From Paenibacillus polygoni (lineage in GTDB: Bacteria; Bacillota; Bacilli; Paenibacillales; Paenibacillaceae), in the NCBI RefSeq assembly GCF_030263935.1, contig NZ_CP127162.1, forward strand, positions 510,001 to 574,000: 64,000 bases of DNA. Direction: 5' to 3'. Positions 42,560 through 47,719 of this stretch are shown in pieces. Position 1 is the stretch's first letter. The number at the start of each line of letters is the position of its first letter. The position numbers and the translations under genes were made by a program. Below the pieces are notes generated by a model, which searched no databases, had not been told where the DNA came from, and saw only the letters and a program-made list of their open reading frames with translations.

Positions 42560-44887
42560 GTGAGTAATGAAACCAAACAAGTAAGATATGAACTGCTTTT
42601 GGATGGTCTTGACTGTGCGAACTGTGCAATGAAGATTGAAAATGGAGTAAGTAAACTGCAAGGAGTCACGTCTGCAACAGTTAACTTTGCAACATGTAAA
42701 TTGATTCTTACTGCAGAAGATGAGACGAAAGAAGATGTCATCACGGAAGCAAAACGTAAAATTAAACAACTTGATTCGCATATTAAAGTTTCCGTCATAG
42801 GAGCGAGAACCCCTCAAAAAGAGGGCAGAAAAAATGGGCATGTCCATCAGCATCATGCCCATGATCACCACGGACATGATCACCACGGACATGATCACCA
42901 CGGACATGATCACCACGGACATGATCACCACGGACATGATCACAGCCACGGCGAAGCGGACGGGCATGAAGGACATAGTCATGATCATAGTTCAGCCCAA
43001 ATGCGTAAAGTTGCTGTACGGCTTGGTGCAGGAACGATCCTTGCTGTTCTCGCAGCACTGCTGCCGATCGGTGGCTGGGCTGAAGTCTCCTTGTTTGTGC
43101 TTGCTTATCTGCTGATTGGCGGTGATGTGTTATGGCAAGCTGTTCGCAATATTGCAAGAGGCCAGGTATTTGATGAATTTTTCCTGATGTCCATCGCAAC
43201 GTTGGGCGCGTTTGCCATTCGGGAATACCCGGAAGCTGTTGCAGTCATGTTGTTTTATCAGATTGGAGAGATGTTTCAGAGTCTTGCTGTGAACCGTTCA
43301 CGTAAGTCCATTCAGTCATTAATGAACATACGGCCGGACTATGCAAACGTGGAGACAGACCAAGGCACTCATAAAATCTCACCTGAACAAGTTGAAATAG
43401 GGAATATTATTGTTGTGAAGCCCGGAGAGCGGGTACCGCTTGATGGAGTCGTAATATCAGGGACCTCTATGCTTGATACCTCTGCACTGACAGGAGAGTC
43501 TCTTCCTAGAGAAGCAGAGCCGGGCAGTGAGATGCTGAGTGGATTTGTTAATCTAAATGGTGTCTTGAAAATAAAAGTATCCAAAACTTACGGTGAGTCC
43601 ACCGTATCCAAAATTCTGGATCTTGTCCAAAATGCATCAAACAAAAAAGCACCTACGGAAACATTTATTAATAAATTTGCAAGGGTATATACTCCGATTG
43701 TCGTCATTGTAGCCCTGCTGTTAGCCATCATCCCACCGCTTGTGATGAGTGGTGCTGAATTCTCAGATTGGCTGTACCGGGCGCTGATCTTTCTTGTTAT
43801 CTCCTGTCCTTGTGCCCTTGTTGTTTCCATTCCGCTTGGATTTTTTGGAGGCATTGGAGCGGCATCCAAAGCAGGGGTGCTTGTAAAAGGCGGAAATTAC
43901 CTCGAAGCTTTGAGTCAAGTGAAAACAGTCGTATTTGATAAAACGGGAACTCTTACGGAAGGCGTTTTTGAAGTATCCGGGATTTATCCTTCTCGTAAGT
44001 TCCTTGCTTCTGCTGGTTCAGAAGAGGAAGCCAAACAACAGTTATTAGAATATACAGCTTATACAGAACTGCATTCTCATCATCCAATTGCGGCATCTAT
44101 TCGAAAAGCATATCAAGAAGCGCTTCAAGAAGAGCGGGTTACAGATTATGAGGAATTATCAGGTTATGGAATTAGGGCAAGGGTGGATGGTCATATCATC
44201 TTTGCAGGGAATACGAAACTCATGAAACAGCAAGAAGTTGCTTACGAGGAGGCAGCAGCATACGGTACAGTTATTCATGTGGCAGTTGATGGGGCATATG
44301 CAGGGCACCTTGTTATCTCGGACCGAATCAAAGCAGATGCTGCCCGGGCGCTGGATGATCTTCGTTCCCTCTCGATTCATAAGACAGTGATGCTTACTGG
44401 GGACGTTCGATCTGTTGCCGAATCTGTTGCAAAGGAACTTGGAGTAGATGAGGTGCACGCAGAACTGCTTCCGCAGCATAAAGTGGAACAGATGGAGCGG
44501 ATTACTGCTTCGAAAGATGCGAAAGAGAAAGTGATGTTTGTGGGTGACGGCATTAATGATACCCCTGTTCTTGCCCAAGCTGATGTGGGTGTTGCGATGG
44601 GAGGTCTCGGGTCGGATGCGGCGATTGAAGCTGCTGATATTGTCATCATGACGGATGAACCTTCTAAGATTGCAACGGCGATTCGCATTGCGAAACGGAC
44701 CCGCACTATTGTATGGCAAAATATTATCTTTGCACTGGGTGTTAAAGCGGTGTTCCTTATTCTTGGTGCATTCGGCATAGCAACCATGTGGGAAGCTGTC
44801 TTCTCTGATGTGGGTGTGACTGTTCTTGCTGTACTAAACGCTATGCGGATCTTGGGATACAAAGAACCTGCTTCAGCAGTTAAATAG
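42560..44887 (+). CDS. cadA: Cd2+/Zn2+/Co2+-type P1B ATPase (CadA-like) with His-rich linker
   Basis: 775 residues, GTG start. N-terminal HMA domain (about 8-75) with the GLDCANCAMK metal site, then a His/Asp-rich linker (about 92-145) containing five in-frame DHHGH repeats. The ATPase core has TGES (actuator), CPC in ISCPCALVV (about 415-419, the transmembrane metal site), DKTGT with phospho-Asp at 460, and GDGINDTP. The eight-helix P1B topology and CPC place it with the Cd/Zn/Pb exporters, and the His-rich linker favours Zn/Cd. It pumps metal out of the cytoplasm. Its CadC-like repressor is divergent. Confidence 0.92.
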   Translation: MSNETKQVRYELLLDGLDCANCAMKIENGVSKLQGVTSATVNFATCKLILTAEDETKEDVITEAKRKIKQLDSHIKVSVIGARTPQKEGRKNGHVHQHHAHDHHGHDHHGHDHHGHDHHGHDHHGHDHSHGEADGHEGHSHDHSSAQMRKVAVRLGAGTILAVLAALLPIGGWAEVSLFVLAYLLIGGDVLWQAVRNIARGQVFDEFFLMSIATLGAFAIREYPEAVAVMLFYQIGEMFQSLAVNRSRKSIQSLMNIRPDYANVETDQGTHKISPEQVEIGNIIVVKPGERVPLDGVVISGTSMLDTSALTGESLPREAEPGSEMLSGFVNLNGVLKIKVSKTYGESTVSKILDLVQNASNKKAPTETFINKFARVYTPIVVIVALLLAIIPPLVMSGAEFSDWLYRALIFLVISCPCALVVSIPLGFFGGIGAASKAGVLVKGGNYLEALSQVKTVVFDKTGTLTEGVFEVSGIYPSRKFLASAGSEEEAKQQLLEYTAYTELHSHHPIAASIRKAYQEALQEERVTDYEELSGYGIRARVDGHIIFAGNTKLMKQQEVAYEEAAAYGTVIHVAVDGAYAGHLVISDRIKADAARALDDLRSLSIHKTVMLTGDVRSVAESVAKELGVDEVHAELLPQHKVEQMERITASKDAKEKVMFVGDGINDTPVLAQADVGVAMGGLGSDAAIEAADIVIMTDEPSKIATAIRIAKRTRTIVWQNIIFALGVKAVFLILGAFGIATMWEAVFSDVGVTVLAVLNAMRILGYKEPASAVK
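42863..42937 (+). repeat. Five perfect tandem copies of a 15-bp unit inside cadA
   Basis: GATCACCACGGACAT is repeated five times without a mismatch, each adding DHHGH to the metal-binding linker. Identical nucleotide copies imply recent or ongoing expansion; copy number can change without shifting the frame. Confidence 0.95.
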
Positions 44888-44911
44888 CAACCTATTTACA
44901 CTATCAAAACG

Positions 44912-44947
44912 AAGCCTCTTCCTTTTTACTGGAGGAGGCTTTTTTTA
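44912..44947 (+). terminator. Terminator after cadA
   Basis: Stem AAGCCTCTTCC / GGAGGAGGCTT followed by seven T. Confidence 0.88.
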
Positions 44948-45022
44948 GGGTTTGTTTTACGTTTCTCCATTCACTAAATTCCAGTTCCTCCTTAGATTCC
45001 CTAAGACAATTCTTCTTCTAAA

Positions 45023-45036
45023 CCTATGTACATAGG
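45023..45036. promoter_or_regulatory. 14-bp perfect palindrome upstream of the aldehyde dehydrogenase gene
   Basis: CCTATGTACATAGG is fully self-complementary and lies in the promoter region of the aldehyde dehydrogenase gene, upstream of the inserted small element. Possible operator; the binding protein is unknown. Confidence 0.45.
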
Positions 45037-45093
45037 CGAAAAATGTTAGCAATTATTGTTTTAATTACTGTCAGCGGGATATTACTTTATAAG

Positions 45094-45177
45094 GAATCAA
45101 TTTCATATAATCTTTAGTTGCTTTAATCGAGAGGATATAGATCAAAGTGATTCTATTTTGAGTTATGAAATTGATTC
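45094..45177 (-). mobile_element. MITE-like element, copy 1 (84 bp)
   Basis: Bounded by 14-bp perfect terminal inverted repeats GAATCAATTTCATA / TATGAAATTGATTC and by direct 3-bp duplications AAG (45091-45093 and 45178-45180). Its reverse complement aligns with copy 2 (46678-46795) end to end apart from a ~34-bp gap; shared interior stretches include TTTGATCTATAT and TAAAGCAAC. It has no coding capacity, so any movement would need a transposase supplied elsewhere. It lies between the palindrome and the ribosome site of the aldehyde dehydrogenase gene. Confidence 0.8.
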
Positions 45178-45251
45178 AAGAGGATAACAATTAGATCAGT
45201 TCTTATTTTCATAGATCATTTTTAACTACTAATTCGAATGGAGGTCCTAAA

Positions 45252-46679
45252 ATGTTACTACAGCATTTATATATTAACGGACAATGGAGAGAAGCAAAAT
45301 CCTATACGACACTGCTTTCTCCTTACAGTGAAGAAACCATCGCACAAGTTGCTATTGCATCAGAACAAGATGTAGAAGATGCTGTTGAAGGAGCAGCGGA
45401 AGCTTTTAAAGTGATGCGCAAGATGCCTGCACACGAGCGTTCTTGCATTCTTGCAAAAGTTGCAGAGCTTTTAGAAGAGCGGAAAGACGAAGCTGCAGAG
45501 CAGATCGCTAAAGAGGCTGCAAAACCTCTCAAGGCAGCAAAGGCTGAGGTGGATCGGACGATCGAAACGTACCGTTTTGCAGCAGAGGAAGCCAAACGAA
45601 TTCAGGGCGAGACGATTCCTATGGATGCGGCAGCTGGCGGAGAGGGAAGAATTGCTTACACGGTAAAAGAACCTGTCGGTGTGGTCGGAGCGATCACGCC
45701 ATTTAATTTTCCGATGAATCTGGTTGCACATAAGCTTGGACCTGCCATCGCAGCTGGGAATACAATCGTGTTAAAACCTGCGGGACAGACGCCTTTGTCT
45801 GCCTATCTTATCGCGGAGTTATTTGAAAAAGCAGGTTTGCCCAAAGGTGCTCTTCAGGTGATAAGCGGGAATGGGAAAATGATCGGGGATAAGCTGGTTA
45901 CTGACTCGCGTGTGAAGCATATTACATTCACAGGGAGTCCGAAAGTCGGAACGGGAATTCGAGAGAAAGCAGGCTTAAAAGGGGTGACACTTGAACTTGG
46001 CTCGAATGCTGCGGTCATTATCGATAAAGAACCAGGAGATTTAGAAGCCATTGCAGAGCGGGTGACAGCCGGTGCTTATTCTTACCAAGGCCAGGTATGT
46101 ATCTCCGTGCAGCGAGTTTATGTTCATGAAGAGATTGCCGAATCCTTCACCAAGCTTCTAACTGAGAAAGTCTCTAAGCTGCGTACAGGTGATCCTTCGG
46201 ACCCGAATACGGATGTATCGGCGCTCATTACAGAGGAGGATACACAGCGAGTAAGGGACTGGATTCAGGAAGCGAAGGCAGAGGGAGCGAAAGTAGTGAT
46301 TGGCGGAGAGATGGAAGGCCGAGTGCTTAAACCAACCATCTTAACCCATGTGCCACTTTCTGCAAAAGTCTCCTGTCAGGAGGTATTTGGACCGGTCGTT
46401 GTAGTTCATAGCGTGAACTCGGTCACGGAAGCGATCCAGCTGGTAAACGATTCCATGTATGGACTTCAAGCGGGTATCTTCACACAAAACATCAATGATG
46501 CGATGAAAGCAGCAGATACACTTGAGGTGGGCGGCGTGATGATTAATGATATTCCTACTTTTCGCGTAGACCATATGCCTTACGGGGGTGTGAAACAAAG
46601 TGGATTTGGCAGAGAAGGCATCAAATATGCGCTGGATGCAATGACGGAACTTAAGCTTGTGGTCATTAACCGTAATTGA
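45252..46679 (+). CDS. NAD(P)-dependent aldehyde dehydrogenase
   Basis: 475 residues, full length for the superfamily. NAD(P)-binding region ITPFNFPMNLVAHKLGPAIA and FTGSPKVG; catalytic Glu in LELGSNAAVI (about 249) and catalytic Cys in GQVCISVQR at 283. The sequence is closest in feel to succinate-semialdehyde/lactaldehyde-type or phosphorylating-bypass dehydrogenases; the exact substrate cannot be named. GGAGG precedes the ATG. Small inverted-repeat elements flank the gene on both sides, and its stop codon is formed partly from the first two bases (GA) of the downstream element. Confidence 0.92.
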   Translation: MLLQHLYINGQWREAKSYTTLLSPYSEETIAQVAIASEQDVEDAVEGAAEAFKVMRKMPAHERSCILAKVAELLEERKDEAAEQIAKEAAKPLKAAKAEVDRTIETYRFAAEEAKRIQGETIPMDAAAGGEGRIAYTVKEPVGVVGAITPFNFPMNLVAHKLGPAIAAGNTIVLKPAGQTPLSAYLIAELFEKAGLPKGALQVISGNGKMIGDKLVTDSRVKHITFTGSPKVGTGIREKAGLKGVTLELGSNAAVIIDKEPGDLEAIAERVTAGAYSYQGQVCISVQRVYVHEEIAESFTKLLTEKVSKLRTGDPSDPNTDVSALITEEDTQRVRDWIQEAKAEGAKVVIGGEMEGRVLKPTILTHVPLSAKVSCQEVFGPVVVVHSVNSVTEAIQLVNDSMYGLQAGIFTQNINDAMKAADTLEVGGVMINDIPTFRVDHMPYGGVKQSGFGREGIKYALDAMTELKLVVINRN

Positions 46680-46795
46680 ATCAATTTCATAACTCATTAA
46701 AACGATAAGTTTGTAACTATATATAGACAAATAGAACCATTTTGATCTATATATACTCCTGACTAAAGCAACGAAAGGTATTATGAAATTGATTC
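46678..46795 (+). mobile_element. MITE-like element, copy 2 (118 bp), inserted at the aldehyde dehydrogenase stop codon
   Basis: Terminal inverted repeats GAATCAATTTCATAA / TTATGAAATTGATTC, with ATT target duplications at 46675-46677 and 46796-46798. Removing the element and one ATT restores AAT-TAG, an in-frame stop at exactly the same codon, followed immediately by the terminator. Opposite orientation to copy 1 and about 34 bp longer in the interior. No coding capacity. Confidence 0.82.
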
Positions 46796-46798
46796 ATT

Positions 46799-46824
46799 AG
46801 AACATTGTTTCATGTTCTTTTTTC
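46799..46824 (+). terminator. Original terminator of the aldehyde dehydrogenase gene
   Basis: Stem AGAACAT / ATGTTCT with a 5-nt loop and a T run. It is now displaced 118 bp from the stop codon by the inserted element. Confidence 0.75.
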
Positions 46825-46837
46825 TTATAACTAGGTT

Positions 46838-46853
46838 CATTCTGAACAGAATG
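46838..46853. promoter_or_regulatory. Dyad upstream of the MerR-type gene
   Basis: CATTCTG-AA-CAGAATG, perfect 7-bp arms, between the terminator and the MerR-TipAS gene. It has the size of a MerR operator; a TAAAAT at 46873 may be the -10. Autoregulation is inferred. Confidence 0.5.
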
Positions 46854-46975
46854 GGTAACTAACCATATATAGTAAAATGAGAAGCTTAGACGTTCAAATG
46901 TACTTAATCCTATAGAACATGACCCACAGTAAGCAATCATTCAAATTAAAAAACAGCAGGAAGGGGGTGTGAGCG

Positions 46976-47719
46976 TTGCAGTATACATTAGATGATCTTT
47001 CCTCTTTTACAGGAGTGGATCAAGAGACATTAACTTCCTACGAGGAAGAAGGTTTACTTGAATCACACGGTGACGTAGATCATGCACCGAAGTATGGATA
47101 TGATAGCTTGCTTGCACTTCAGCAGATTATGTTATACCGGGAACGATCTTTATCAGTCAATCAAATTAAAGAACGAATGCAATCGGAACCGAAGGAACTG
47201 CTGGGCAGACTGCACGATCATCGGCTGCATTTACTCAGAGAATCTTCTCGAATTCATACGTTAATCCAGTCCGTAGATGAAACGATTGAGTCGCTAGAAC
47301 TCCATAAAGAGATCGAACCAGATCATCTATTTAGAGGTTTCAGCGAGGAGGAACGAAGCGAAAAGAAGGGACCAAGCCTCTCCCCAAGCGAAATCGAGAT
47401 GGAGTTAAGTAACTCTACTACTCGGGTGCAGGAAGAATATTTATCATCCCAGGAGACGCTGGATATGATTAATGAACAGCTTCAACAAGCGATGGAGAGG
47501 GGACTCACTCCTGCAAGTGAGGAAGTACAAAGAACGGTACGAATGCACTTAGATTGGGTTAAACAATTTTATACGCCGACAGCAACGATATATAAAGGCC
47601 TGGCAGATCTTTACGTGGATAAGATACAGTATAGGGAGATATATAATCGTTACCATCCGGGGATGGCAGAGTATATGCGTGACAGTATGCTCGTGCTGGC
47701 GGATCGGGAACTGAAGTGA
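46976..47719 (+). CDS. MerR family regulator with TipAS-like ligand domain
   Basis: 247 residues, TTG start after GGAAGGGGGTG. N-terminal MerR helix-turn-helix (about 1-70; SSFTGVDQETLTSYEEEGLL, less canonical than usual), a long dimerisation coiled coil (about 75-125), and a C-terminal TipAS-type helical domain (about 135-245; LDWVKQFYTPTATIYKGLADLYV), which in TipA binds thiopeptide antibiotics. It may sense a hydrophobic drug. No target gene is adjacent. Confidence 0.88.
   Translation: MQYTLDDLSSFTGVDQETLTSYEEEGLLESHGDVDHAPKYGYDSLLALQQIMLYRERSLSVNQIKERMQSEPKELLGRLHDHRLHLLRESSRIHTLIQSVDETIESLELHKEIEPDHLFRGFSEEERSEKKGPSLSPSEIEMELSNSTTRVQEEYLSSQETLDMINEQLQQAMERGLTPASEEVQRTVRMHLDWVKQFYTPTATIYKGLADLYVDKIQYREIYNRYHPGMAEYMRDSMLVLADRELK

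Follow-up and report, generated by a model that had tools for sequence, protein, structure and literature searches.

An IS1182-linked MITE family in Paenibacillus, with two inverted copies around an aldehyde dehydrogenase gene of Paenibacillus polygoni

An aldehyde dehydrogenase gene between two inverted copies

The window, by which we mean the whole stretch of 64,000 nucleotides analysed (positions 510001-574000 of the single 4.94-Mb contig of P. polygoni), carries on its forward strand an aldehyde dehydrogenase (ALDH) gene (PF00171; 45252-46679), whose homologues gave the enzyme family and nothing further. The gene lies between two short segments: copy 1 (45094-45177, reverse strand), an 84-bp variant without 34 bp of the interior, identified by alignment, and copy 2 (46678-46795, forward strand), the full-length 118-bp form, identified by sequence, alignment, BLAST and a model match. 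A first-pass annotation had read the pair as a MITE bounded by a 14-mer and its complement, and all four occurrences that it gave were found exactly, at 45094-45107 (+), 45164-45177 (-), 46678-46691 (+) and 46782-46795 (-). With up to two mismatches allowed, the 14-mer had eight matches in the window compared with 1.44 expected, a number reached by none of 100 shuffles. The reverse complement of 45094-45177 aligned end to end with 46678-46795, and the gap of about 34 bp annotated between them was recovered as 34 gap columns (32 + 2). Both copies are small, with stop codons in their ends, and therefore hold no useful reading frame, in agreement with the absence of coding capacity proposed earlier.

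Terminal inverted repeats matching the 15-bp sequence GAATCAATTTCATAA at 14 or 15 positions were present at both ends of both copies, as judged by sequence and end matching: the left arm of copy 1 (45094-45108, +) matched 14/15, while its right arm (45163-45177, -) and the left (46678-46692, +) and right (46781-46795, -) arms of copy 2 matched 15/15, the left arm of copy 2 being identical to the ends of IS1182-type insertion sequences (IS). The ends of each segment pair as a stem, and folding was far better than that of shuffled sequences on both strands of both segments (z -3.7 to -6.3). Copy 2 also contains an inner inverted repeat (46717-46756, +; arms 46717-46727 and 46746-46756), which shows compensatory changes among the copies of relatives. 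Each copy is flanked by its own 3-bp direct repeat, as annotated: AAG at 45091-45093 and 45178-45180 around copy 1, and ATT at 46675-46677 and 46796-46798 around copy 2, all consistent with the empty sites of the relative An7, which at the first site reads TTATAAGAGG.

Copy 1 ends 74 bp before the ALDH start. Upstream of it, a block at 45040-45090 appeared by eye to be conserved in An7 and P. gallinarum, and partly in genome G043; this block could be the ALDH promoter, in which case copy 1 would lie inside the 5' leader.

Copy number, size and spread of the family

In the genome of P. polygoni, 105 end sequences were found at no more than one mismatch, compared with two for a reversed-pattern control. 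BLAST of the 118-mer returned at least 40 matches (every one of the 40 scored, among 92 candidates), and a covariance model built from 40 copies returned at least 61 at an E-value of 0.001 (150 of 4432 first-look candidates scored), so the many copies that the first-pass annotation had proposed to look for are present and the genome holds about 60 copies of one element. From 96 loci of this genome, 47 end pairs were collected, and 46 were analysed after removal of one 147-bp false pairing. The commonest length was 118 bp (24 copies), with shorter forms down to 33 bp, the shortest having more end mismatches and a less certain identity. Three of the 24 118-bp copies were identical, and a further ten lay within one or two bases of another copy; this near-identity suggests recent spread. 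At least four pairs of copies lay within 2 kb of each other compared with about 1.5 expected, from which we claim no clustering.

Two side observations concern shortened forms. An 88-bp form recurs, in P. polygoni at G000:C1:1682050-1682137 and also in P. gallinarum and genomes G009, G030, G045 and G058; the P. polygoni copy lacks about 30 bp between both CTATATATA repeats of the inner stem, a slippage-like pattern. In Paenibacillus sp. 453mf (G058:C9, L403:1016-1174), four head-to-tail copies of a 39-bp mini-form are separated by one-base spacers, an unusual tandem array of a micro-MITE.

Matches at an E-value of 1e-6 occurred in 48 of 197 genomes (four candidates scored per genome), namely P. 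polygoni, 45 others of the genus and two of another family. One of these two, P. albiflavus (G167), had seven model matches, its best copy being 87% identical to that of the window, from which we infer a likely horizontal spread. Plasmid and phage sequences, searched by BLAST, contained no match to the 118-mer. A 15-mer scan of viral contigs gave at least 120 stretches, 80 of which were checked; two ends (no more than four mismatches in total) were present in 17, none with matching 4-base flanks, and the viral stretches were therefore taken as chance.

Exact target duplications flanked 29 of the 46 P. polygoni copies analysed (4 bp in 25 and 3 bp in 4; none in 17), beyond a chance level, estimated by pairing left flanks with the right flanks of other copies, of 3.3% for 4 bp and 4.3% for 3 bp. 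Among 62 copies of relatives, the duplications were of 4 bp in 25, 5 bp in 4, 3 bp in 4 and 2 bp in 1, with none in 28. Both copies at the ALDH gene belong to the 3-bp minority: the 3-bp duplications annotated there are real at both sites, but the norm of the family is 4 bp. The favoured target was T-ANNT-A, with A first and T last in 84% and the outer T and A in 60-62% (25 sites with exact 4-bp duplications per set, both strands).

IS1182-family transposases with the same ends

A DDE_Tnp_1 search of seven genomes located transposase ends about 115 bp from an exact MITE end in An7 (G018) and P. gallinarum Sa2BVA9 (G005). The eight DDE_Tnp_1 matches of P. polygoni were other IS, none with MITE ends. 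A side observation in this genome is six copies of another DDE_Tnp_1 IS with 472-codon frames and without MITE ends, five of them with identical scores (G000:C1, positions 232860, 412493, 472587, 594283, 4199888 and 4896263). An IS427-type parent (PF13340) was rejected, as matches occurred in two of 12 genomes and the three loci had no paired ends.

The An7 transposase piece (148 residues) scored 39.4 with Pfam DDE_Tnp_1_6, above the cut-off of 25.1, and gave a partial match of 79.5 to the NCBI IS1182 model, below its cut-off of 270; a contig end truncates it, and the element may in reality be intact. Its relatives were found in 39 of 393 genomes at an E-value of 1e-15, four of them from the genus of the window. 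In genome G264, eight of ten listed transposase matches were fetched, and seven of the eight had exact 15-bp ends on both sides, the other having one end only. Each of the seven paired elements has a length of 1551 bp and a frame of 454 codons, and the duplications were of 4 bp in six (ATTT, ACGT, GACT, CATT, AATA and ATTC) and of 5 bp in the remaining one (AACGT), noting that the end pairing favoured pairs carrying a duplication. The G264 transposase scored 271.3 with the IS1182 model, just above the cut-off. The IS of G213, G342 and G347 had ends with 0-1 mismatch and 4-bp duplications, while in those of G372 and G119 the two ends together had 1-3 mismatches and an exact duplication was absent; no paired ends were present in six of 20 stretches from other genomes or contig ends, and one pair (L388) was false. 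Autonomous IS1182-family elements with the ends of the MITE, another of the checks proposed by the first-pass annotation, therefore exist in related genera. Among 11 loci whose transposases share 44-53% identity with the An7 piece, ten had GAGTC or AAGTC instead of GAATC, and at 54-61% identity both kinds of end were present; by this pattern the MITE ends suggest a link to the nearer transposases, if not a sharp one.

P. polygoni itself has one decayed transposase end near 974.8 kb, with two in-frame stops and 75% identity over 283 bp to the An7 piece. A full-transposase search of ten MITE-bearing genomes found no intact IS with MITE ends, five being without a match and five having only truncated, decayed or contig-cut pieces; conversely, a scan of two genomes that carry intact IS (G264 and G213) gave no MITE model match. 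The parent transposase, given as unknown in the first-pass annotation, can now be assigned by kind to the IS1182 family, although an intact copy was not found in the ten MITE-bearing genomes searched.

This small overlap between the hosts of intact IS and the hosts of MITEs would be expected if the MITE were moved by a different, unsampled IS and its IS1182-like ends had arisen by chance or convergence. The interior of the MITE would also fit such a case, being unlike any IS found here: in a BLAST comparison of the 118-mer with 13 extracted sequences (12 IS and the false pair L388), only the ends matched, over 15-21 bp, apart from short chance hits. The G347 element gave the longest match, 20 of 21 bases, at one of its ends. 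With sharing confined to 15-21 bp at the ends, the interior was not recovered as an internal-deletion product of any IS found. Against this stand the identity of both MITE ends to IS1182 ends (15/15), the usual duplication of 4 bp in both, and the presence in two close relatives, An7 and P. gallinarum, of transposase pieces with an exact MITE end, and we consider a different mobiliser very unlikely.

A MITE moved by an IS1182-family transposase is, as a whole, very probably the best explanation. The element is a non-autonomous MITE of 118 bp with 15-bp terminal inverted repeats, accompanied by shortened variants, and a DDE transposase of the IS1182 family, working in trans on these repeats, would have spread it through P. 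polygoni and many other Paenibacillus genomes, cutting with a stagger of mostly 4 bp (sometimes 3 or 5) at AT-rich T-ANNT-A targets, often at or just past gene ends. Copy number, ends, duplications, empty sites and target preference are direct results, and from them we infer that the mover was an IS1182 transposase of the subgroup described above.

Empty sites in relatives

An7 carries the ALDH gene and its flanks without either copy, the sites TTATAAG-AGGATAAC and AAATTAG-AAC being unbroken, and in P. gallinarum both sites are unbroken too, but diverged (flank identity 94-97% to An7 and 86-91% to P. gallinarum). With both sites empty in relatives, both copies are real, independent insertions, which would most simply have occurred once the lineage had separated from An7 and P. 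gallinarum. The sites of two further P. polygoni copies (L044 and L053) are empty in P. gallinarum (L142), where a 4-bp overlap directly displays the duplication. Six P. polygoni copies (L023, L036, L038, L039, L060 and L174) are common to a locus of a relative. Copy size differs at two sites: L195 has 56 bp in P. polygoni but 118 bp in both An7 and P. gallinarum, and L167 has 116 bp in P. polygoni, compared with 40 bp in J45TS6. Because the loci of relatives were mostly fetched for containing copies, the proportion of empty sites is uninformative. Together with the copies, the duplications and the IS with the same ends, the empty sites uphold the MITE interpretation of the first-pass annotation, which had named them as a check.

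Inverted copies around one gene resemble a composite transposon, in which the two copies and the ALDH gene would form one mobile unit transporting the gene. However, each copy has its own duplication and no outer-only duplication was present, and since An7 and P. gallinarum have the gene at this very position but neither copy, the copies are not a composite unit and the gene is not their cargo; we give this arrangement practically no credence. It is equally improbable, to the point of being negligible, that the segments belong to the ALDH locus as a conserved hairpin or regulatory RNA instead of being a mobile element: the strong hairpins and the compensatory changes of the inner stem would suit such an RNA, but presence in all relatives and nowhere else was looked for and not found, there being about 60 dispersed sites, target duplications and empty ALDH sites in relatives, and Rfam gave no family at threshold in 44800-47200, its two sub-threshold matches lying beside the copies and none on them.

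Position of the copies relative to genes

Compared with rough ORF calls, 35 of the 46 copies were clear of ORFs, ten overlapped an ORF edge and one (33 bp, uncertain) lay inside. Among the 45 not inside an ORF, 18 had the nearest gene 3' end inside the copy or no more than 25 nt away, and five had the nearest 5' end so placed. Seven copies provide a stop codon within the element, and the ALDH gene is one of three genes with a copy at the -2 position, where the T of the target and the GA of the element form TGA. In the window this codon occupies 46677-46679 (+), the GA being bases 1-2 of copy 2, whereas the empty site of An7 reads AAT TAG; the last residues, INRN, are unchanged compared with An7, whose stop is TAG. 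The earlier description of inverted copies around the gene holds, with the addition that the right-hand copy interrupts the stop codon and so is not purely intergenic.

A promoter scan of 44880-47000 gave two sites compared with 4.3 in shuffles, one of them on copy 1 and facing away from the ALDH gene, and a terminator scan gave three compared with 1.7, none on a copy. On these results, a promoter or terminator role of the copies is unsupported.

Inner stem and predicted pairing between copies

The inner stem was analysed in an alignment of 40 distinct copies of 108-122 bp, from 43 loci offered, which were mostly the best BLAST match per genome, a choice that favours conservation. The interior inverted repeat comprises 11 pairs, with 94% of cells paired, and at one pair G-C occurred in 20 copies, T-A in 13 and C-G in one, with three unpaired and three gapped. 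Covariation was 0.103 compared with 0.032 in shuffles, none of 500 reaching the observed value, and at most 0.024 in slid controls, although such counts are inflated by the relatedness of the copies. Other measures were less decisive, the number of pair types being reached by 16 and that of pairs with two-sided changes by 41 of 500 shuffles, and the covariation term of RNAalifold was small (-0.2). In the 118-bp copy of the window, C-C stands at the outermost of the 11 positions.

Because the two insertions are inverted, the copies in an ALDH transcript are able to pair with each other. The predicted fold of both copies was -96.0 kcal/mol jointly compared with -52.6 as separate hairpins, and when the structure of the 1745-nt region was predicted, copy 1 paired with copy 2 over 79 of 90 nucleotides. 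A second inverted pair, at L166:2039-4101 (G000:C1:3030338-3032400), flanks two ORFs and likewise has strong predicted pairing between its copies, as expected from any inverted pair. It is conceivable, though in our view unlikely, that the inverted insertions act as complementary 5' and 3' UTRs, so that the ALDH mRNA would form a panhandle altering its stability, RNase III processing or translation, and that the covarying inner stem would then be kept for an RNA action of the element at many gene ends.

Significance and comparison with known systems

With these results, a high-copy repeat family of a large genus associated with soil and plants acquires a likely parent, and its duplication length and target rule are described. 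The MITE appears to have spread recently, and all that was found of a matching transposase in the same genome is a decayed relic. The stop codon that copies provide shows how such elements settle at gene ends. The inner hairpin has no relation to the IS found and offers a hint, open to testing, that the element may matter in its RNA form. Among the titles and abstract openings listed in searches of the open-access literature for Paenibacillus MITEs, IS1182 and similar repeats, none named the family.

The RUP element of Streptococcus pneumoniae is linked to an IS630 element with a TA target, and hence to an IS family other than IS1182. RUP, with 107 bp and 108 copies, is described in terms that resemble the Paenibacillus MITE, with a length of about 110 bp, terminal repeats, stop codons in the frames and movement presumed to be driven by an IS in trans (PMC2229807). 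QMITE2 of Coxiella burnetii likewise lies mainly in 3' UTRs or between genes, and one insertion alters a gene end; it differs in its length of 150-190 bp and its direct repeats of 7-11 nt, and the paper that describes it does not mention IS1182 (PMC5896051). IS1272 has been assigned to the IS1182 family, and its new insertions are described as replacing inverted-repeat targets without a duplication, older copies lying in inverted-repeat or other targets, whereas the Paenibacillus MITE and the IS described here leave duplications of 3-5 bp (PMC5678879). Replacement of the IS1272 type was ruled out for our element, as duplications are present and the target bases are kept.

The closest likeness is to the IS1182-linked MITEs of Methanosarcina acetivorans (ISMac2), of 160 and 169 bp with repeats of 26 and 25 bp, the first with 14 copies and a 4-bp direct repeat and the second with no direct repeat in the published listing (PMC3852290). 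Compared by description only, these are likewise short, non-coding and multi-copy with IS1182-like terminal repeats, the 118 bp and 15-bp repeats of the Paenibacillus element being shorter than those of the archaeal ones (PMC3852290). The Paenibacillus copies are a real IS1182-linked MITE family, of a kind that, going by this account, has already been described in archaea (PMC3852290).
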